A DNA stretch of 40,905 nucleotides from Candidatus Zixiibacteriota bacterium (GTDB lineage Bacteria; Zixibacteria; MSB-5A5; GN15; PGXB01): positions 1 through 40,905 of the forward strand of contig JAPLUR010000122.1 in assembly GCA_026397505.1 (NCBI GenBank). Reading direction: 5' to 3'. Below, in pieces: positions 1,253 to 33,267 of this stretch (positions within the stretch are counted from its first letter, which is position 1; the number at the start of each line of letters is the position of its first letter). The notes beneath the pieces were generated by a model that saw nothing but the letters and a program-made list of their open reading frames with translations, was not told the origin of the DNA and did not search any database. Made by a program: the position numbers and the translations under genes.

Positions 1253-2701
1253 ATGGGAATTTTAAGGTATTTTGCCTTTTTGACCTTGCTTCTGGTATTT
1301 CTGTTGCCATCAGCTTTTGGCAGCGGCTTTACTTTTGACGGCAACGGAGTGAAGGCAAGAGGTATGGGCGGGGCATTTCGTGCCGTAGCTGATGATTGGT
1401 CGGCAGCCTGCTATAATCCTGCCGGATACGCCCGGATGAAGGATAATCAACTGGCGGGCAATCTGACTATTTTCCATAACCGTTACTGGGTCAAGCCCAA
1501 TATCCTGTGGGGCGGACAGTATGAAAGCGGTTACATGAACGGTCTGGATATTCCCAATAAACACGAGTATTTGAATATCCCCCAGGGTGCCTTCCTGGCT
1601 CGTTTCCCTTTCTGGGGTGAAATTGTGATGGGATTATCCGGTTACCAGGCTTTTGATCAAAACCAGACCTGGCAGCTGTATAAGAACATTCCGGCATACA
1701 GCCGTGCCAGTATTCCCGGCACCCAGTATTACATCAACCTTGATGTGGTCGCATTCCAGTTGACTGCGGCCAAGAACTTCATGAATGATCGCCTTTCGGT
1801 CGGAATCGGTCTGGCGGTTCTCCGCGGCGATTTGTCTTATGGTGATCTGGTCCTGAGAAGAAATCCGATGCCGGCTCCGATCAGCGATCGTCCTTACGAA
1901 AGAGTCCCCGAATGGTATAAGAATGACGGTAATGGCTGGGGAATAGGCTATCGCGCCGGGCTTCTTTATAAAGCGACCGAGAAATTGGATCTCGGCCTGG
2001 TTTTTATCGGGAAATCATCAATTGATATTGACGGAACCAGCGAGTTCAAGTTCTATATGGGAGACAATGCCTACCTGCGCGATAACTTCTTTCCCACCAC
2101 CGAGGAATACCTTTTTGCCGGCGGCGAAGTTGTGGATTTGAATTCCAAATTCAAGACCACCCTTGATCTCCCGGCTTCCATCGGCGGCGGGATTGCCTAC
2201 AAGGTCAATCAGAAACTGACTGTGGCGCTTGATGCCGAAATGGTTTTCTGGTCTTCGTTCAAAGGTTTTGACTTCACCTTCAGCAATTTCTCCGGCCTAA
2301 AAAATCCGCTGTTCCTTCGCGCCAACGATTCTTTATTCAAGACCAACATGGTTGTACCGGTTAAGTGGGACGATGCCGGAAAAGTGATGCTTGGCGCCAA
2401 TTATAAGGCTTACAGTTTCATAGATGTGAGAGCCGGAGGCTCTTTTGAAAATTCGCCGGTTAACCAGACGACTTTCATCCCGCAGTTTTTCAATCTTGGC
2501 GATAAATACACGGTCGGTTTTGGCCTTGGTTTTGCAATCGGCTACTGGAATCTCGATTTCGCCACCAACTATTCTCATCAGAAGGATCTCAAAATCACCG
2601 GTTATTCTGATGTCAATGACGATGGTTTGATGGATAACCTGCAGGGCGATTACAGAGCCAATAACTATGAAACCGTGCTCGGTATCTCATACCGGTTTTA
2701 G
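1253..2701 (+). CDS. Outer-membrane beta-barrel protein, OmpP1/FadL-like
   Basis: The protein has a Sec signal peptide (hydrophobic run FAFLTLLLVFLLPSAFG). The mature start carries the KARGMGGAFRAVADDWSAACYNPAG pattern (about residues 30-55) typical of the OmpP1/FadL/TodX family, where a conserved N-terminal hatch precedes the barrel. Many alternating beta segments follow and the last residue is Phe (SYRF), the usual outer-membrane insertion signal. Members transport hydrophobic molecules or act as general barrels; the cargo here is unknown. In-frame starts exist at 1238 (TTG), 1241, 1247 and 1253. I prefer ATG 1253 because GGAG at 1243-1246 lies six bases upstream. An esterase-like lipoprotein follows 12 bases later, so the two are probably co-transcribed. 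Confidence 0.8.
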   Translation: MGILRYFAFLTLLLVFLLPSAFGSGFTFDGNGVKARGMGGAFRAVADDWSAACYNPAGYARMKDNQLAGNLTIFHNRYWVKPNILWGGQYESGYMNGLDIPNKHEYLNIPQGAFLARFPFWGEIVMGLSGYQAFDQNQTWQLYKNIPAYSRASIPGTQYYINLDVVAFQLTAAKNFMNDRLSVGIGLAVLRGDLSYGDLVLRRNPMPAPISDRPYERVPEWYKNDGNGWGIGYRAGLLYKATEKLDLGLVFIGKSSIDIDGTSEFKFYMGDNAYLRDNFFPTTEEYLFAGGEVVDLNSKFKTTLDLPASIGGGIAYKVNQKLTVALDAEMVFWSSFKGFDFTFSNFSGLKNPLFLRANDSLFKTNMVVPVKWDDAGKVMLGANYKAYSFIDVRAGGSFENSPVNQTTFIPQFFNLGDKYTVGFGLGFAIGYWNLDFATNYSHQKDLKITGYSDVNDDGLMDNLQGDYRANNYETVLGISYRF

Positions 2702-8220: not shown

Positions 8221-8247
8221 GAGGGATGGGCATTATGCCTATCCCTC
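8221..8247. terminator. Bidirectional hairpin between convergent genes
   Basis: GAGGGATGGGC (8221-8231) pairs with GCCTATCCCTC (8237-8247) through 11 pairs, including one G-T, around a five-base loop. It lies between the amidase/dockerin gene and the end of selD, which converge, and probably ends transcription from both sides. Confidence 0.65.
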
Positions 8248-8298: not shown

Positions 8299-9354
8299 TC
8301 AGTCGACTGCAATTGCTTTCGCGCCCTTTGCTGTCACTTCACCGATTTCATACACCGGTAATTGCCGCTGCGCCGCCTCACGAACAAAGCCGACCGCATT
8401 TTCTTTTGGCAAAGAAATTAAAAGTCCCCCTGATGTCTGCGGATCGAAAAGTATATCGGTCATAGGGACAGACAGGCGGGAGGGTATGGTCACTTTATCT
8501 ACCAGATATTCGCGGTTGGCATTGCTTCCCCCGGGAATCGCGCCTGATTCGGCATATTTAAGAATATTCGGCAGAAGAGGAAGAGTGTCATAATGAAATA
8601 CAATACCGATATTGGAAGCAGCGGCCATCTCATAGGCGTGCCCCAGAAGGCCGTAGCCGGTGATATCGGTGGCGGCATGAGCGCAGAACTGCAGCATCAA
8701 CTCCGAGGCGATATTATTCAGCCGGGTCATCATGGCAGTCACCGCCTCTATATCTTCCGGCGCGGCCATATTGCGCTTAATCGCCGTAGTGATTATCCCG
8801 GTGCCGAGAGGTTTGGTCAAGAAAAGTTTGTCGCCGATTTTGGCTCCGGCATTTTTTACAATCCTGTCAATATCAATGATCCCGGTGACCGCCAGGCCGT
8901 ATTTAAGTTCTTTGTCCTTGATTGAATGCCCGCCGACAATTACCGCTCCGGCCTCGCGAATCTTTGCGGCTCCCCCCAGAAGTATCTTAATCAGGATATC
9001 CGGCGGCATGGTGGCCTCGGGGAAACCGACAATATTGAGCGCCGTGAGCGGTTTGCCGCCCATGGCGTAGATATCAGAAAGGGCGTTGGCGGCCGCAATT
9101 TGCCCGAAAGCATACGGATCATCGACGATCGGCGGGAAAAAATCGACCGTCTGCACCAGTGCCTGACGTTCGTTTATCTTATATATGCCGGCATCATCCG
9201 AAGTCTCAAACCCAACCAGAAGATTGGGATTGGTCTCGGCCGGGAGTTTCTTCAGCAGTTCAGCCAAAAACTTTGGCCCCAACTTAGAGGCTCAACCCGC
9301 GCAGGTGACTTCTGCCGTCAGCTTGATTGTAATTTCTTCTTTTTCGTTTTTCAT
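8299..9354 (-). CDS. selD: Selenide, water dikinase SelD, a predicted selenoprotein (Sec21 encoded by TGA)
   Basis: SelD makes selenophosphate from selenide and ATP, the selenium donor for selenocysteine and selenouridine. The family signature is continuous: NPNLLVGFETSDDAG, DFFPPIVDDPYAFGQIAA, AMGGKP, GGHSIKD, LFLTKPLGTGI, DITGYGLLGH and DPQTSGGLL. Conventional ORF calling would start at 9282 and lose the active-site loop. Reading back to ATG 9354 gives a 351-residue protein, the normal length, interrupted once by TGA at 9294-9292. The context is T-C-A-G-(TGA)-A-S-K-L-G-P, exactly where other SelD proteins carry the catalytic Cys or Sec of the glycine-rich loop. I therefore call the TGA selenocysteine, residue 21. 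A hairpin suited to be a SECIS follows. The gene is the last in a minus-strand cluster headed by an ECF sigma factor, about 100 bases after the preceding gene. Confidence 0.93.
9262..9278 (-). promoter_or_regulatory. Candidate bacterial SECIS hairpin in selD
   Basis: On the minus strand, G-GCCAAA, loop GTT, TTTGGC-T forms a six-pair stem plus a closing G-T wobble, with GU in the apical loop. The loop lies about 21-23 bases after the TGA (9294-9292). Bacterial SECIS elements sit directly downstream of the Sec codon with an apical GU at roughly this distance, where SelB binds. Fold and spacing were read by eye. Confidence 0.65.
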
Positions 9355-9454: not shown

Positions 9455-10453
9455 CTATTTTTGAAGATATCCCAGCCGGCTTCGCTGTTTTCTTCTTATC
9501 TCTTTGGGAATATTTTCATAAATCCAGTCTACGTATGCGGCAATACTGTCTTTCTTTTTCTTTGCGCCCAGCTTATCGAATGATAAATCGAGCCAGTAAG
9601 CGGCTTCAATGACATTGTAGTAATTTCCCGGTTCCGTCTTTAATCTCTCCAGAATCCTATTATATGTCTCCGTTGCGGGCGAATATTGTCCGCTCTTGAA
9701 ATATGCTTTCCCCAGAGGCCAGAGAAATGTATTCCCGCTCGGATATTGCTGGGACATCTCGGTCGCCAATGATATCGCCGAATCATAGTCTTTTTCATTG
9801 ATCCATATCCAGATCAGCGCCGCCCGGGCTGATTTACCCGAAAAGAGTGAGGAATCAATGGCCCATTTGATCTCCTCAATTCCCTGCGCCCGGTCGTCAC
9901 CGAAAAGGCCAATAGTACGAAGAAACCCCGCTTTGACAGATTTCCAGTAGTGATATGAGCCCAACCCGAGATATAGGTCATATAGGGTGGAATCGGCTTT
10001 CAGACCATCCTCATAAGCAGCTTTGGCCTTCATTCCGCTGCCAAGCGCCGCCAGGCTGGATCCGAAACGTGATTCCCACAATGAACGGTAGGCATACTGG
10101 TATCCCAGGTACAAATAGCAGAGCGCCGAATCGCGCCTGGAGCAGCCACGCAGTTTTTGTTTGGCAAGATATTGGGTACTATCCAGAAGAGCATTAAACC
10201 TGACCCCATAAAGATTTTCCTCGCGGTCGGTCATTTCCGCCTGAAGTACTCCGGCCCGAAAAAGATATCCGGCCGGGTCGGTTGTATCCTCGCGATGCAA
10301 TTTGTCGTAAATGGCATATGCCGCCGGCCAATCGGTTGCCAGTAAAGCCTCTTCACCGGCCAGTATAGCTTCAATCTTTTCCAAAGAGAGTAATGGCTGC
10401 GTCATCGCAGACCCGGCCAGAAGAATGCCGGTCAGAAAAAGAAGATATCTCAT
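9455..10453 (-). CDS. Secreted TPR-repeat protein (paralogue of the upstream gene)
   Basis: This 332-residue protein has a signal peptide (YLLFLTGILLAGSAMTQP) and then helical tetratricopeptide-like repeats, for example ATDWPAAYAIYDKLHREDTTDPAGYLFRAG near residue 40 and NTFLWPLGKAYFKSGQYSPATETYNRILE near 250. Its central block DSTLYDLYLGLGSYHYWKSVK is nearly the same as DSTFYDVYLGLGAYHYWKTIK in the gene upstream, so the two are tandem duplicates that have diverged. The start codon overlaps the stop of that gene by four bases (10450-10453), indicating coupled translation. It is probably periplasmic and a scaffold for protein contacts. No enzyme motif is visible and the specific role is unknown. 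Confidence 0.75.
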   Translation of the reverse strand: MRYLLFLTGILLAGSAMTQPLLSLEKIEAILAGEEALLATDWPAAYAIYDKLHREDTTDPAGYLFRAGVLQAEMTDREENLYGVRFNALLDSTQYLAKQKLRGCSRRDSALCYLYLGYQYAYRSLWESRFGSSLAALGSGMKAKAAYEDGLKADSTLYDLYLGLGSYHYWKSVKAGFLRTIGLFGDDRAQGIEEIKWAIDSSLFSGKSARAALIWIWINEKDYDSAISLATEMSQQYPSGNTFLWPLGKAYFKSGQYSPATETYNRILERLKTEPGNYYNVIEAAYWLDLSFDKLGAKKKKDSIAAYVDWIYENIPKEIRRKQRSRLGYLQK

Positions 10454-11481
10454 CGCAGCTTCTTGGCAAGAGATTCCGCCTTATCCAGAGTCTCGGCGAA
10501 ATAGGCATTCGCCTTCTTCATCGAGCTATCCGAGATGATTTTATCGATTATTTTGCGGGCCGCTTCTTTATCCCCTTTCTGAAAGAAAATTTCGGCGGCA
10601 AGATATTCGACTTCATAGAATCCGAAAGGATCATAAAAAGGGGATTTTTTCCAGGCGGCGCGCAACATCCGCAATTTCCCCTCGGCTTCATCGAGACGGC
10701 CGACCGCCATCAGCCCCTGGGCATGATAGAGCAGGCAATAGGGGTCACCGGGATTTAACTCGGCCAGGGAATCGGCCAGACGCAGCATCTCGGCGTATCG
10801 CCCTTCGTTCAGATACACCCGGAGAAGCGATTCGCGGGCATTGTATGTCGACAGATAGCCATGCTCGGCCGCCTTGATAATCTCTTCTATTCCCTGTTCG
10901 CGGCGGTCGCTGACAAACGGGAGCCAGAGAAAGTCCTTGGATTTAATCGTTTTCCAATAATGATAAGCCCCCAGCCCCAGATAAACATCGTAAAAAGTGC
11001 TATCCAGCTCCAGCGTGCGTTCGAGGTGTGAACTGCACTGAAAACCATCCTTGAAAGCCCCCCACCAGTCTCCGTGAAAGGCGCGATGCAATGCCCGATA
11101 ACCGTGCCCCGCCCCCGTGATAAAATGCCAGTCGGGATTTTCCGGATCGCTGTCTATTCTTTCCTCCGTCAAGGCAATCGCTTTATCGAGAAGATAAGTA
11201 ACGCTATCTTTGAAACGATCCGTGCGGTATTCCTCGGAAATCGTCTGGTAAACTGTCCCTAATAGAAAATATCCGACCGGATTCTGCGGTTCATTGACCA
11301 CGATTGCCCGCGCGTTATCGATCGCATTATAATAATCGTAGTGCCATATGTAGCGGGATATCTGCCGGACAAAAGTGTCGCGGATGGCGGTTTCCGAACT
11401 GGCCGAGGCAGCAAGAAATAATAGAAAAAGGCAAGTTATAAAGAAAATTGTTGTGAGAGGAACCGAATTCCGCTTTAGCAT
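10450..11481 (-). CDS. Secreted TPR-repeat protein
   Basis: The 343-residue protein begins with a signal peptide (TTIFFITCLFLLFLAASASS) followed by about six helical hairpins of tetratricopeptide type: EPQNPVGYFLLGTVYQ, DSTFYDVYLGLGAYHYWK, GDPYCLLYHAQGLMAVGRLDEAEGKLR and EVEYLAAEIFFQKGDKEAARKIIDK. It shares the YLGLGxYHYWK block and the following 'QGIEEI' stretch with the downstream paralogue, with which it overlaps by four bases. It lies 47 bases after the anti-sigma gene, so it probably belongs to the same sigma-controlled transcript. The likely place is the periplasm or outer face of the inner membrane. Function beyond protein-protein contact is unknown. Confidence 0.75.
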   Translation of the reverse strand: MLKRNSVPLTTIFFITCLFLLFLAASASSETAIRDTFVRQISRYIWHYDYYNAIDNARAIVVNEPQNPVGYFLLGTVYQTISEEYRTDRFKDSVTYLLDKAIALTEERIDSDPENPDWHFITGAGHGYRALHRAFHGDWWGAFKDGFQCSSHLERTLELDSTFYDVYLGLGAYHYWKTIKSKDFLWLPFVSDRREQGIEEIIKAAEHGYLSTYNARESLLRVYLNEGRYAEMLRLADSLAELNPGDPYCLLYHAQGLMAVGRLDEAEGKLRMLRAAWKKSPFYDPFGFYEVEYLAAEIFFQKGDKEAARKIIDKIISDSSMKKANAYFAETLDKAESLAKKLR

Positions 11482-11528
11482 CGCCGCATAATATCGAGCA
11501 GGAGGAATATTAGCAATAGTTTTTTGAG

Positions 11529-12305
11529 CTATATGGGCCGTACAGTCGCTATGAAGGCGGGTAAATCAATGGTTTTATCTTCAGAAATAGCCATGGCAAT
11601 AGAATCGCCATGCTTCCAATAGATCATCTGGCAGTCAGCGCAGACATGCCGGAAATACTCCATTCCGGAATAGACGGTTTTCTGGAAATTGGGTAAGACG
11701 GTATCGGCGGCACGGCCGAAGAAAAGCGAGACCCTGGCAGACCCATTCTGGTATCGCAGGTGAACATATTTGTGTCCGATGATATCATCATAACCGCCAT
11801 GCAGCATCTGATACCCCGCTACGCTGTCGCTCAGGGCAAGATGCAGGTTCGAGGCCAGATAGTCCCTTATCTGCGGGAGCGGAATGCCCCTATTATTCTC
11901 CATAATAGATAACGGATTTCCTTCCAGATGATGTTTTTCGAAAGGATAAACGTAAGTACGATGGCGGTACAATTGGGAAAGAGAAAGGGCCGAAACCAGA
12001 AAGAGTACCAGAATAGCCGCCGCGGCAAAAATTAGATTTTTATTCTTAAAAAAATTTGTAAAAAAACCCCCTGACTCTGGTTCACCTTCCTCAAGACGGG
12101 CGAGAATTCTATATTTCAGCTGTTCGGTTATGGTCGGGGAGGTCGCTTTATCGGTGACAAACGTTTTGAACATCGTCTCGAATTCATAGCGCTTCATACA
12201 GTCGCGGCAGTTTTCGAGATGCGCTCGGACTTTTTCGGTATCGATTTGATCGGCTTCTTTATCAATTACTTCATAGAGTAGTCTCAGGGCTTCCTGGCAT
12301 GTCAT
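11529..12305 (-). CDS. Zinc-finger (ZAS-type) transmembrane anti-sigma factor
   Basis: The 258-residue protein starts with an anti-sigma domain carrying the His-x3-Cys-x2-Cys signature (His29, Cys33, Cys36 in HLENCRDC), the zinc site of the ZAS family that binds and silences its partner ECF sigma factor. A single membrane helix follows at about residues 91-111 (LIFAAAAILVLFLVSALSL). The outer domain of about 145 residues contains a second Cys pair (VCADC) of unknown use that could sense redox state or metal. The start overlaps the sigma factor stop by four bases, the usual sigma/anti-sigma arrangement. The signal sensed is not evident. Confidence 0.85.
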   Translation of the reverse strand: MTCQEALRLLYEVIDKEADQIDTEKVRAHLENCRDCMKRYEFETMFKTFVTDKATSPTITEQLKYRILARLEEGEPESGGFFTNFFKNKNLIFAAAAILVLFLVSALSLSQLYRHRTYVYPFEKHHLEGNPLSIMENNRGIPLPQIRDYLASNLHLALSDSVAGYQMLHGGYDDIIGHKYVHLRYQNGSARVSLFFGRAADTVLPNFQKTVYSGMEYFRHVCADCQMIYWKHGDSIAMAISEDKTIDLPAFIATVRPI

Positions 12306-12886
12306 TTGGCTGCTTCCTTGATAAAACCATTCTTAACTGCGTAATCCCAGAGAGCTTTTTGAAGAAGCTTGCGCCCCCGATGAAGTCGCGATTTAACCGT
12401 TCCGATCTGAAGACCGGCGATCTCGGCAATCTCCTGGTAGCTGAATCCCTCCAGAAAGGAGAGCACCACAACCAGCCGGAAATCCTCGGGCAACTCCTCA
12501 ACGGCTCTCTTAACATCGTCGTCAAAAACCTTGGCAAAGAAATGCTGTTCCGGATTCTCCGCAGGTCCCAGAGCCGATAACTGTCCGAATAAGAAATCAT
12601 CATCAACATCCTGTAAGTCAACAACCTGTGGCGTCCTCGATTTGGCGCGGTAGTTGTTGATAAAGATATTGGTCATTATCTTGAACAACCACGCCCGACA
12701 ATTGGAACCTTCTTCGAACTTATCCCAGAAGCGGTACGCTTTAAGAAACGTCTCCTGAACCAAATCCTCGGCCTCATTCTCATTCCGGGTCATCCGGAGA
12801 GCAGTCCGATGAAGAGCGTCCAGGTGTATCAGCGCCTGGGCTTCAAACTTACCCTTTTTATTATTTCCCGAATTCAATTCGCTCAT
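12302..12886 (-). CDS. ECF-subfamily RNA polymerase sigma factor
   Basis: The 194-residue protein has the two-domain layout of group 4 (ECF) sigma factors. Region 2 (about residues 20-90) holds ALRMTRNENEAEDLVQETFLKAYRFWDKFEEGSNCRAWLFKIMTN, which binds core polymerase and the -10 element. Region 4 (about 125-180) holds a helix-turn-helix, VEELPEDFRLVVVLSFLEGFSYQEIAEIAGLQIGTVKSRLHRGRKLL, which reads the -35. It is followed with a four-base overlap by a zinc anti-sigma factor and then by TPR genes and selD. A GGAAC-N18-GTT match lies upstream, compatible with autoregulation by a SigR/SigE-like factor. Confidence 0.92.
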   Translation of the reverse strand: MSELNSGNNKKGKFEAQALIHLDALHRTALRMTRNENEAEDLVQETFLKAYRFWDKFEEGSNCRAWLFKIMTNIFINNYRAKSRTPQVVDLQDVDDDFLFGQLSALGPAENPEQHFFAKVFDDDVKRAVEELPEDFRLVVVLSFLEGFSYQEIAEIAGLQIGTVKSRLHRGRKLLQKALWDYAVKNGFIKEAAK

Positions 12887-20583: not shown

Positions 20584-21831
20584 ATGAGGAAAATAATTAG
20601 ACTTCTGGTTTTAACGGCCCTGACCCTGTGTGGCCTTTCCTGCTCAGATTCGGCTGCTCCAGTTCAGCCGGCCAAGCCGCCGCATCAGAATCCCCCGATC
20701 GAGTTGACCGCCGCCGATAAAAGTCTGGCGGAATCAACCAATCGGTTCGGTTTTAACCTGTTCCGGGAAATCTCGGCACGGGAACCGGCCGGGAATAACA
20801 TTTTTGTCTCGCCGTTATCTGTCTCCTATGCGCTCGGTATGACACGCAACGGCGCCGCCGGAACGACCCGCGAAGCCATGAACAAGACTCTTGAACTGGC
20901 CGGACTAACCGACCGGGAGATAAACGAAGCATATCGGAACCTTACCAAAATTCTTACCCGGCTTGACCCGACCGTCGCATTCAAGATCGCCAATTCTATC
21001 TGGTCGCGGATTGGGAAAACGATACAGCCCGAGTTTGTTACCCTGAGCCGGGATTATTTCGATGCCACGGTAAAAGAGGTTGACTTTCTTGCTCCGGGAA
21101 CGGTCGATTCCATCGACAATTGGGTTAATATTAACACCAACGGCAAGATAAAGGAGATATTCAAAGGCGGATTGCCGGCCGATGTGGCCATGCTACTGAT
21201 GAATGCCATCTATTTCAAAGGAACCTGGACCCATCTCTTCGACAGTGCCGAATCTTATGACGGCGCCTTTTATCTGAGTGATAGTACCGAAATTTCAAGC
21301 CGGATGATGGCGCGCGAGGATACTCTTCTGTACTTCGCCAATGACTTGTTTGAAGCAGTCGATCTTCCTTACGGTGATGAAAATTTCAGTATGGCGATAC
21401 TTCTCCCTTTGCCATCGGTGACACCGGAGCAAGTGGCAGCGCAGTTAAATGACGCCAACTGGGCGGTCTGGAGAAAAAGCTTTTACAAGGCGGTGATGCC
21501 GATTGCCATGCCGCGATTCAGATTCGAGTATGGGGTGAAACTGAATGATGCACTCCAGGCGCTCGGGATGACCATTGCATTCGGCGGCGGGGCCGATTTC
21601 AGCAAGATGTTTGTCGATGGCGTGGGATGGATAGATCAGGTTAAACATAAAACCTTCGTCCAGGTCGATGAAAACGGCACCGAGGCGGCGGCTGTGACGG
21701 CCGTGGTGATGATTGACAGTTTCAATCCGGGCATGCTGATCAACCGGCCGTTTATATTCCTGATACACGAGCACCAGTCGGGAGCCATTCTCTTTATCGG
21801 CAAAATCGCCCGGCCCGTCTGGAATGAATAA
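20584..21831 (+). CDS. Serpin-family protease inhibitor, predicted lipoprotein
   Basis: The 415-residue protein has a signal peptide with a plausible lipoprotein cysteine (CGLSC, about residue 20), a Pro-rich linker, and a full serpin fold: NIFVSPLSVSYALGMTRNGAAGTTREAM near residues 77-100, LLMNAIYFKGTW near 202, and PFIFLIHEHQSGAILFIGKI at the end. The reactive-centre hinge GTEAAAVTAV near residue 363 has the small residues needed for loop insertion, so it should be inhibitory. Counting from the hinge puts the scissile bond around Asp-Ser-Phe, one residue shorter than in antitrypsin. The target protease is unknown; surface anchoring suggests protection against external or self-secreted proteases. 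Confidence 0.93.
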   Translation: MRKIIRLLVLTALTLCGLSCSDSAAPVQPAKPPHQNPPIELTAADKSLAESTNRFGFNLFREISAREPAGNNIFVSPLSVSYALGMTRNGAAGTTREAMNKTLELAGLTDREINEAYRNLTKILTRLDPTVAFKIANSIWSRIGKTIQPEFVTLSRDYFDATVKEVDFLAPGTVDSIDNWVNINTNGKIKEIFKGGLPADVAMLLMNAIYFKGTWTHLFDSAESYDGAFYLSDSTEISSRMMAREDTLLYFANDLFEAVDLPYGDENFSMAILLPLPSVTPEQVAAQLNDANWAVWRKSFYKAVMPIAMPRFRFEYGVKLNDALQALGMTIAFGGGADFSKMFVDGVGWIDQVKHKTFVQVDENGTEAAAVTAVVMIDSFNPGMLINRPFIFLIHEHQSGAILFIGKIARPVWNE

Positions 21832-26876: not shown

Positions 26877-28343
26877 ATGAGTCAGCAGCCGGCCGCCTTT
26901 ATGAGCTATGTCCGTTTCGTTGATGAGCATGAAACGGGACGATTAAGCGAACTCCGCAATCGCTTGAGTGGTGAAATCCGCCTGCAGACCGGAGAAGAGT
27001 TTCACATATTTCAGGATCGGGCGGACATCGCCTGGGGCCAGCAATGGAAACAACGCATCGACGAGTCCCTTGATGCCGTCACCTTTCTCATCCCAATCAT
27101 CACACCCGGGTTCTTTAAAAGCCCGCCATGTTGCGAAGAGCTGAATCGTTTCCTCGAGCGGGAGAAAAAGCTGAAACGCCAGGATCTGATTCTGCCGGTC
27201 TATTACGTAAATTGTCCGATCCTTAACGATGAGGCGAAGCGGCAAGCTGACCCATTGGCCAGAGTCATCGCTGCGCGGCAATATATCGACTGGCGCGAAC
27301 TGCGCTTTGAGCCATTTACCTCCCCACAGGTAGGCAAGATGATCGCAAGGATGGCAGCGCAAATCGTCGAGGCATTGGAACGCGGGCAGCCCAAGCCGCG
27401 GCCTATGCACAGCGCGGGCGCACGCGGGCACCGAAAGGCTATTAAGAGCAGTGCCGAGAAGAGCCCACAGCGCGAGGAAGCTGGCACGGAATCTGCCGAT
27501 GACTCGCGCGGACCGTTGTCCAAAACCGAGCCTCCGACGTTAATCGTCGATGCGTTCCATCGCGGAGATCACCTGACTCTGGGGGATGCACTCAAAGCCG
27601 CCAAACCGGGTGACCGGATTCTTGTCCGGCCCGGGTTGTATAAGGAAGGTGTCACTATTGACAAGCCGGTCGAAATCATAGGTGACGGGGCGTTGGGCGA
27701 GGTCGTAATCGAAGCGAAGGGCAAGGATACCGTCGTCTTCATGGCGAACATGGGTCGAGTCGCCAATCTGACCCTGCGGCAAGTTGGCGGCGGGGATTGG
27801 TATTGCATCGATATCACCCAGGGACGTCTCGATCTGGAAGGATGCGATATAACAAGTCAGTCTCGATCGTGTGTTAAGATACATGGAGGTGCAGACCCAC
27901 GTTTGTGCCGCAACCAAATTCACGAAAGCAAGCGGGGCGGGGTTTATATTTTGGAGTATGGCCAGGGATCGCTGGAGGATAATGATATTTACGGCAACAT
28001 GATGTCTGGCGTGGTGATCAAGACGGGGGGCAATCCAATCCTGCGTCGCAACCGTATCCACGATAGCAGGGAGGACGGCATTCTTGTTGGCCAATATGGT
28101 CAGGGTGTGATTGAGGATAATGATATATTCGGCAATGCATTTGCTGGTGTGGAAATCAGGGAAGGAGGCAATCCCACCCTACGTCGCAATCGCATCTATA
28201 AAAATCTCTATGAAGCGATTTGGGTATATAAAGGCGGGCAAGGTGTCTTTGAGGACAACGACCTTCGCGGTAATGCCAATGGGGCATGGGATATCGCCGC
28301 CGATTGTCTTGACAAGGTGAAGCTCGCCCGCAATAAAGAGTAA
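26877..28343 (+). CDS. TIR domain fused to a right-handed parallel beta-helix
   Basis: The 488-residue protein has three parts. Residues 1-165 are a TIR domain: FMSYVRFVDEHE, the IFQDRADIAWGQQW loop, SLDAVTFLIPIITPGFFKS, then CCEELNRFLE carrying the Glu expected to be the catalytic residue of NAD-cleaving TIR domains. Residues 166-220 are a charged, low-complexity linker. Residues 220-488 are a right-handed beta-helix of the CASH/NosD type (TLGDALKAAKPGDRILVRPGLYKEGV). Its C-terminal half repeats a 46-residue unit at least three times (NPILRRNRIHDSREDGILV, YGQGVIEDNDIFGN). There is no signal peptide, so it should be cytoplasmic. A TIR effector with a solenoid sensor is the arrangement of some immune or signalling proteins, but no partner gene is next to it. 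A defence role is inference. Confidence 0.85.
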   Translation: MSQQPAAFMSYVRFVDEHETGRLSELRNRLSGEIRLQTGEEFHIFQDRADIAWGQQWKQRIDESLDAVTFLIPIITPGFFKSPPCCEELNRFLEREKKLKRQDLILPVYYVNCPILNDEAKRQADPLARVIAARQYIDWRELRFEPFTSPQVGKMIARMAAQIVEALERGQPKPRPMHSAGARGHRKAIKSSAEKSPQREEAGTESADDSRGPLSKTEPPTLIVDAFHRGDHLTLGDALKAAKPGDRILVRPGLYKEGVTIDKPVEIIGDGALGEVVIEAKGKDTVVFMANMGRVANLTLRQVGGGDWYCIDITQGRLDLEGCDITSQSRSCVKIHGGADPRLCRNQIHESKRGGVYILEYGQGSLEDNDIYGNMMSGVVIKTGGNPILRRNRIHDSREDGILVGQYGQGVIEDNDIFGNAFAGVEIREGGNPTLRRNRIYKNLYEAIWVYKGGQGVFEDNDLRGNANGAWDIAADCLDKVKLARNKE

Positions 28344-31836: not shown

Positions 31837-31887
31837 TGAGTTGATAATATGATTACTTGCCTAAATTATAAACAGTAGGTGCCTTTT

Positions 31888-33267
31888 ATGAAAAGACTTG
31901 GTATTTTCGCGCTGTTGCTCCTCGCCCCACTTTTCATCTCTAACCTCGTTCTGGCCGATTCTGAGGCTGAGAAGGAAGTTACGGCTATACAGAAGAAAAT
32001 CGCCGACGAGGGCCTTGACTGGACGGCGGGACTAAATCCTATCATGACCGATTATACTCTCGATGAACGTCGCCAAATGCTCGGTCTGAAAATGCCGCCC
32101 AACTGGGAAGAGATATGGAGCGCTCACCTGCGCAAGGACTTTGTGTCCAAGGCGGCGTCCGACCTTCCTGTCAGTTTCAATTGGCAGGATTCGGGCAAGG
32201 TCACGCCGGTGAAAAACCAGGGAGGATGCGGTTCCTGCTGGATTTTCTGTGCCACCGGCGCTCTGGAGGCAAATTATAAAATCTATCGCCAAGTTGAATA
32301 CGATCTTTCCGAACAGCAGATTCTTTCCTGCGTGTCTCCCGGCTGGGGATGCAATGGCGGGTGGATGGATGATGTATATAATCATTATAAATCTTTTGGC
32401 GCCATTCTCGAATCCCAAATGCCCTATCTGGCCAATCATAATATTCCATGCACCGAGACACAGTATCAACCGATTGCTTTTCTCGACAGTTGGACAGCCA
32501 TCCCGAACAATATTTATTCTCTGAAGACCGCGGTTATGACCGCCCCGGTGGCGGTTGCCTTCTATGTTTTTAATGATTTCTTTTCTTATGGCGGAGGCTG
32601 TTACAGCAATAACACCTTCACCACCGACTTGAATCATGGCGTGCTAATTGTCGGCTGGGATGACACCATGTGCAACGGCCAGGGCGCCTGGCGGGTCAAG
32701 AACAGTTGGGGGCCAGGATGGGGCGATAATGGTTTTTTCTGGATCAAATACGGCACCTGCAATTTTGGTCAGGGGGCTGCTCTTCTTGATATTAACGCCG
32801 TCAGAATTGCCGAGGAGACTCCGCTTCCGGCCGGCAATCCCTGCTCGGAATATAGCTACCAGATGAACGCCAGCGGCGGGACGCCACCCTATAACTGGTC
32901 GATTTTGGTCGCCCAGCTTCCCGCCGGATTGACTCTGGAAACCGGCGGCCTGATACACGGTAGTCCGGAAAAAGGGGGCAGCTATACTTTCGCCCTCCGC
33001 GTAATGGATTCCTCGATCCCGGTCAAAAGCTTTTTCAAATATTTTACTTTGCCGGTGGCCAATGCCATGAACGGTGATGCCGATTGCAGCGGCCAATACA
33101 ATATCGCCGATGTTACCTATATTATCAAATATCTGTATCGCTCCGGCCCGCCTCCGGTCATCCCGCAGGCCGGCGACCTCGACTGCACTTTTAATTGTGA
33201 TATTTTGGATATTACCTATCTGGTCAATTATATCTACAAAGGCGGCCCCGCGCCCTGTCAGTATTAA
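31888..33267 (+). CDS. Secreted papain-family (C1A) cysteine protease with Ig-like and dockerin-like tail
   Basis: From ATG 31888 the 459-residue protein has a signal peptide (LGIFALLLLAPLFISNLVLA), a propeptide-like region to about residue 90, and a C1A peptidase domain. Catalytic Cys117 is in NQGGCGSCW, His250 in NHGVLIVGW and Asn272 in KNSWGPGWG, with the oxyanion Gln at 111. A putative Ig-like module follows (PYNWSILVAQLPAGLTLETGGLIHG). The C-terminus has two dockerin-like calcium loops (GDADCSGQYNIADVTYIIKYLY and DLDCTFNCDILDITYLVNYIYKGGPAP). The tail matches the one on the amidase-linked frame at 8.2 kb, pointing to a common anchoring or assembly partner. A GTG at 31879 is an alternative start. 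A strong terminator follows. Confidence 0.92.
   Translation: MKRLGIFALLLLAPLFISNLVLADSEAEKEVTAIQKKIADEGLDWTAGLNPIMTDYTLDERRQMLGLKMPPNWEEIWSAHLRKDFVSKAASDLPVSFNWQDSGKVTPVKNQGGCGSCWIFCATGALEANYKIYRQVEYDLSEQQILSCVSPGWGCNGGWMDDVYNHYKSFGAILESQMPYLANHNIPCTETQYQPIAFLDSWTAIPNNIYSLKTAVMTAPVAVAFYVFNDFFSYGGGCYSNNTFTTDLNHGVLIVGWDDTMCNGQGAWRVKNSWGPGWGDNGFFWIKYGTCNFGQGAALLDINAVRIAEETPLPAGNPCSEYSYQMNASGGTPPYNWSILVAQLPAGLTLETGGLIHGSPEKGGSYTFALRVMDSSIPVKSFFKYFTLPVANAMNGDADCSGQYNIADVTYIIKYLYRSGPPPVIPQAGDLDCTFNCDILDITYLVNYIYKGGPAPCQY

Follow-up and report, generated by a model that had tools for sequence, protein, structure and literature searches.

The selD gene and its internal TGA

The window, by which we mean the whole 40,905-nucleotide stretch that was analyzed, carries on its minus strand a gene whose product matches selenide, water dikinase (SelD). 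Translation of the minus strand of 8299-9354 gave MKNEKEEITIKLTAEVTCAG-(TGA)-ASKLGPKFLAELL..., followed by the terminal TGA stop, and the frame is intact save for the one internal TGA in the context VTCAG-(TGA)-ASKLGP. A sequence-only reading had proposed that the frame continues upstream of the usual start, through this TGA (9294-9292), to ATG 9354, and the translation agrees. Its claim that gene callers would truncate the protein by 24 residues is also right, because the ordinary open reading frame starts at TTG 9282 and encodes 327 aa, whereas the complete protein has 351 aa.

When the TGA was translated as Cys, the product matched the curated equivalog model TIGR00476 (selD) over its full length (400.6 bits, cut-off 125, profile positions 1-310 of 311), and residues 7-348 matched Escherichia coli SelD (3u0o) with an E value of 3.5e-78. 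In the alignment the TGA (residue 21) falls opposite Cys17 of E. coli SelD and the corresponding Cys of Aquifex SelD, and U21-A-S-K24 pairs with C17-G-C-K20 of the E. coli protein, which covers both the catalytic Cys/Sec and the conserved Lys. Alignment of the N terminus with Cys- and Sec-containing SelD proteins, suggested earlier as a check, thus put the TGA at the catalytic position where it had been said to lie, opposite the essential Cys of E. coli and the Cys codons of Bacilli.

Upstream of selD, the same strand encodes an ECF sigma factor, a zf-HC2 (anti-sigma-like) protein, and two TPR proteins, and in approximately eight relatives of the same family selD is likewise preceded directly by the closest of these TPR genes. 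An inverted repeat noticed by eye in the gap separating selD from a convergent PKD/dockerin gene is perhaps a terminator shared by the two. Elsewhere the window encodes a protein combining an N-terminal TIR domain with a right-handed beta-helix, a bacterial serpin, and a papain-family protease (Table 1). An Rfam scan of the window found two tRNAs and nothing else.

Table 1. Features of the selD locus and side observations in the window
Feature	Position	Strand	Details	Evidence
selD CDS	8299..9354	minus	351 residues, ATG 9354, stop TGA 8301-8299	TIGR00476, E. coli SelD match, frame
Predicted Sec codon TGA, residue 21	9292..9294	minus		E. coli Cys17 alignment; TGA in phylum relatives
Cys18 and Ala19 codons	9298..9303	minus	upstream part of the C-A-G-U (CxxU) active-site motif	sequence
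Predicted SECIS upper hairpin	9262..9278	minus	GGCCAAA-GUU-UUUGGCU, 7 pairs, loop G at +21 (9271)	covariation, synonymous recoding
Possible lower SECIS extension	9257..9284	minus	AGUU/AACU	hairpin plus lower stem -9.6 kcal/mol; window sequence alone
Inverted repeat	8221..8247		GAGGGATAGGCATAATGCCCATCCCTC	by eye
ECF sigma factor, zf-HC2 protein, two TPR proteins	9455..12886	minus		
Bacterial serpin	20584..21831	plus		PF00079, 332 bits
TIR/beta-helix protein	26877..28343	plus		PF13676, PF13229
Papain-family protease	31879..33267	plus		PF00112, 173 bits

Conservation of the TGA and the hairpin among relatives

We searched 98 genomes (the genome itself and 97 relatives) for SelD. A free-standing SelD with TGA at the Sec site was present in 84 of them, including the genome itself, and the nearest named relatives carrying it are Candidatus Zixiibacteriota. 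Every free-standing SelD of the phylum relatives that covers the site has TGA, with mostly TGC or TGT in Bacilli. At 165 loci, a set in which some genomes are represented twice through two collections, the codon was TGA in 100, TGC in 47, and TGT in 18, with the Cys codons confined almost entirely to Bacilli and fused homologues. Coding is conserved on both sides of the UGA, the 20 residues before it being retained in frame among relatives, and the UGA stands opposite Cys in homologues, as is asked of a bacterial selenoprotein. A protein tree calculated with the site left out placed the window SelD among the Zixiibacteriota Sec-SelDs and required four Sec/Cys changes. In the same tree the SelD of one genome from another family of the class (L024, genome G083) groups inside the window's order and not with its class neighbors, which may reflect horizontal transfer or a binning error.

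The six-pair hairpin with GU in its loop that had been described downstream of the TGA is present, but not at the reported offset of approximately 17 bases; the six-pair stem occupies +15 to +29, or starts at +14 with 7 bp when the outer G-U pair is counted, and the loop GUU spans +21 to +23 (window 9271-9269). The window holds a single exact copy of the hairpin 15-mer, and viral contigs contained zero exact matches to the degenerate motif. Folded alone, the hairpin is unremarkable: a 55-nt segment gave z = -0.83 and had a competing minimum free energy (MFE) fold, and over 39 nt the MFE fold is more stable than the hairpin fold by 1.5 kcal/mol. Single-sequence folding being uninformative, we turned to comparison across relatives.

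Within the order the hairpin stands at a constant distance from the TGA. In a gap-free alignment of 62 distinct order-level sequences, pairing held in 94.5% of stem cells and two-sided changes were found in five of the seven pairs. The covariation score was 0.440; shuffled alignments gave 0.167 and slid structures no more than 0.208. This score is no probability because the shuffles ignore relatedness. The covariation across orthologues is that looked for in a bacterial SECIS (bSECIS). In a second control the protein was kept and synonymous codons were redrawn, and p ≤ 0.05 denoted a hairpin stronger than the recodings. The mean energy of the GU-loop hairpin in 63 distinct order-level genes was -6.5 kcal/mol versus -0.4 kcal/mol for synonymous recodings. 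The hairpin was stronger than the recodings in 51 of 63 Sec genes of the order, 11 of 13 at class level, and 8 of 15 others; among Cys genes this held for 1 of 56 free-standing and 0 of 9 fused copies (1/65 together). On the basis of these comparisons, the hairpin at 9262-9278 is a predicted bacterial SECIS, although the window sequence alone folds weakly.

Individual relatives vary in the element. In L048 one C-G pair is replaced by U-A (stem GUCAAG-GUU-CUUGAC), and the protein changes alongside from GPKFLAE to GSRFLTE, a paired change of the kind that selection on the RNA would be expected to produce. In L061 the hairpin is no more than a short, shifted one. Some order-level relatives carry GGC in place of GU in the loop; in five loci of one family (f2; L159, L160, L162, L163, and L164) GGC stands where GU or GGU is usual, possibly reflecting a change of SelB specificity. 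In the window's order, as in part of the remaining class members, the loop G lies at +19 to +22. For other members of the class, and for Firmicutes SelD, the position is +34. We rate at even odds the proposal that within this one orthologous gene the SECIS moved, between 19 to 22 nt and 34 nt after a Sec codon that stayed fixed. If so, SelD would offer a test case for the tolerance of SelB and for evolutionary shifts in hairpin distance.

Selenocysteine machinery and SelD homologues

The genome contains the full set of genes for selenocysteine synthesis and decoding. A tRNA-Sec with anticodon TCA was located on contig C50 (34083-34174; 71.9 bits, gathering score 47) and selA on contig C144 (484.6 bits). 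The selB gene starts just past the selA stop codon, leaves the end of C144, and resumes on C141; the ends of these contigs share an exact 141-nt overlap, and selB is complete across both. The prediction that selA, selB, and selC would be found is therefore confirmed, and neither of the observations named in advance as fatal to the proposal (lack of selB or selC; TGC or TGT at 9294-9292) was made. Across the 98 genomes a tRNA-Sec match above the cut-off was found in at least 77, and absences are unreliable because only 38 candidates per genome were scored. No second selD and no selU were found in the genome, and the single Sec-SelD is therefore the only selenophosphate source found.

Further selenoproteins had also been anticipated, and one was found: a peroxiredoxin on contig C52 of the genome (G000:C52:64817-65194; L199, about 1425-1905, minus strand) has TGA at the position of the peroxidatic Cys, in the context FYPLDWTPV-(TGA)-TNQ, with its own 6-bp hairpin whose G-first loop starts at +28. 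The formate dehydrogenase-like and FlpD-like proteins encoded in the genome have no TGA and were rejected as selenoproteins.

Approximately 14 relatives, not including the genome itself, have an open frame of 559-766 aa with a strong SelD match and no TGA. All nine of the fusion loci that were fetched (L180-L188, from G083, G010, G014, G003, G007, G045, G084, G092, and G061) encode a NifS-type cysteine desulfurase domain ahead of a Cys-type SelD with a CxC motif. SelD fusions with NADH dehydrogenase are known, but that assignment was rejected for the 734-766 aa homologues, in which Pfam identified a NifS-type aminotransferase class V domain. Two prokaryotic NifS fusions were listed in 2015 (PMC4561486). 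Most carriers have the fusion alongside a Sec-SelD, and in G092 (99% completeness) it occurs alone. Relatives with Sec-SelD alone, with Sec-SelD plus the NifS-SelD(Cys) fusion, and with the fusion alone form a natural series for studying the point at which a Cys copy lifts self-dependence.

Predicted selenocysteine in SelD and comparison with known systems

Sec-SelD is a textbook selenoprotein, and its dependence on itself is already known from other bacteria. We put at approximately 97% the probability that the gene encodes SelD with selenocysteine at active-site residue 21, inserted by means of the UGA and a SECIS; Sec is almost certainly the residue at the active site. SelD would make selenophosphate from selenide and ATP, and SelA would use it to form Sec-tRNA-Sec. 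SelB carrying Sec-tRNA-Sec would bind the hairpin 14 to 30 nt past the UGA and deliver Sec there in place of termination. SelD catalysis, SelB binding, and Sec insertion are predicted here from known families. Since its product would feed Sec-tRNA-Sec synthesis, SelD would help to make its own active-site residue, and with Sec-SelD as the only SelD of the genome, Sec would be needed to make Sec.

The TGA might instead be a genuine stop codon or the product of a sequencing error, with a 327-residue product from TTG 9282 or a decaying gene. This is the frame that gene callers give under table 11, but the TGA recurs in 83 related genomes, the 20 residues ahead of it are kept in frame, a product from 9282 would have no catalytic residue, and both the recoding control and the covariation indicate a hairpin under selection; we regard such an explanation as very improbable. 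Just as little weight attaches to reassignment of UGA in this lineage to one of the standard amino acids. The frame is indeed open once the TGA is read as a residue. Against reassignment, 8 of 28 plausible genes of the window, selD included, end in TGA, homologues have Cys at the site and not Trp or Gly, and the genome encodes tRNA-Sec, selA, and selB.

It is also conceivable that Sec is inserted but that the hairpin is a by-product of the GPKFLAE codons and recoding depends on another element. Coding and structure do overlap, and many members of the order share the same amino acids. The loss of the hairpin in synonymous recodings argues otherwise, as do two-sided changes that accompany amino-acid changes, L048 being an example, and we consider this very unlikely, if slightly less so than the two preceding explanations. 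A selenocysteine-containing SelD with its own SECIS remains our preferred reading, by which a little-studied candidate phylum would decode UGA as selenocysteine, a known arrangement found here across the phylum, and by which a standard gene caller would cut the N terminus of SelD there. Among the open-access papers searched, none dealt with selenoproteins of the Candidatus Zixiibacteriota phylum.

Published bSECIS criteria specify a loop of 3-9 nt, an upper stem of 4-16 bp, G in the first two loop positions, a spacing of 16-37 nt, and an MFE at or below -7.5 kcal/mol (PMC13188914). The window hairpin resembles this consensus in its 3-nt loop (GUU) with G first, its 7-bp stem, and the 20 nt between the UGA and the loop. 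It differs in energy, the upper stem alone (-6.3 kcal/mol) being weaker than the limit; with the lower stem it reaches -9.6 kcal/mol, with the competing fold 1.5 kcal/mol better over 39 nt. Compared with Cys-SelD proteins, the window SelD is approximately 50-55% identical to those of Bacilli over nearly the whole length and is alignable with that of E. coli over residues 7-348, whereas the E. coli and Bacilli genes have TGC or TGT in place of TGA, a CxC motif, and in nearly all cases no SECIS. It shares with the Sec-SelD/SPS2 of other bacteria the protein family, the position of Sec, the in-frame UGA with a bSECIS, and selA, selB, and selC (PMC1794560, PMC4561486, PMC13188914), but unlike them has its second Cys at -3 (CxxU) and not at +2. 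In the window's order the Cys at -3 is present in 59 of 63 Sec-SelDs and Cys at +2 in none, compared with Cys at +2 in 54 of 56 free-standing Cys-SelDs; in an ocean survey, CxxU occurred in about 5.6% of single-domain Sec-SelDs (PMC2398784).
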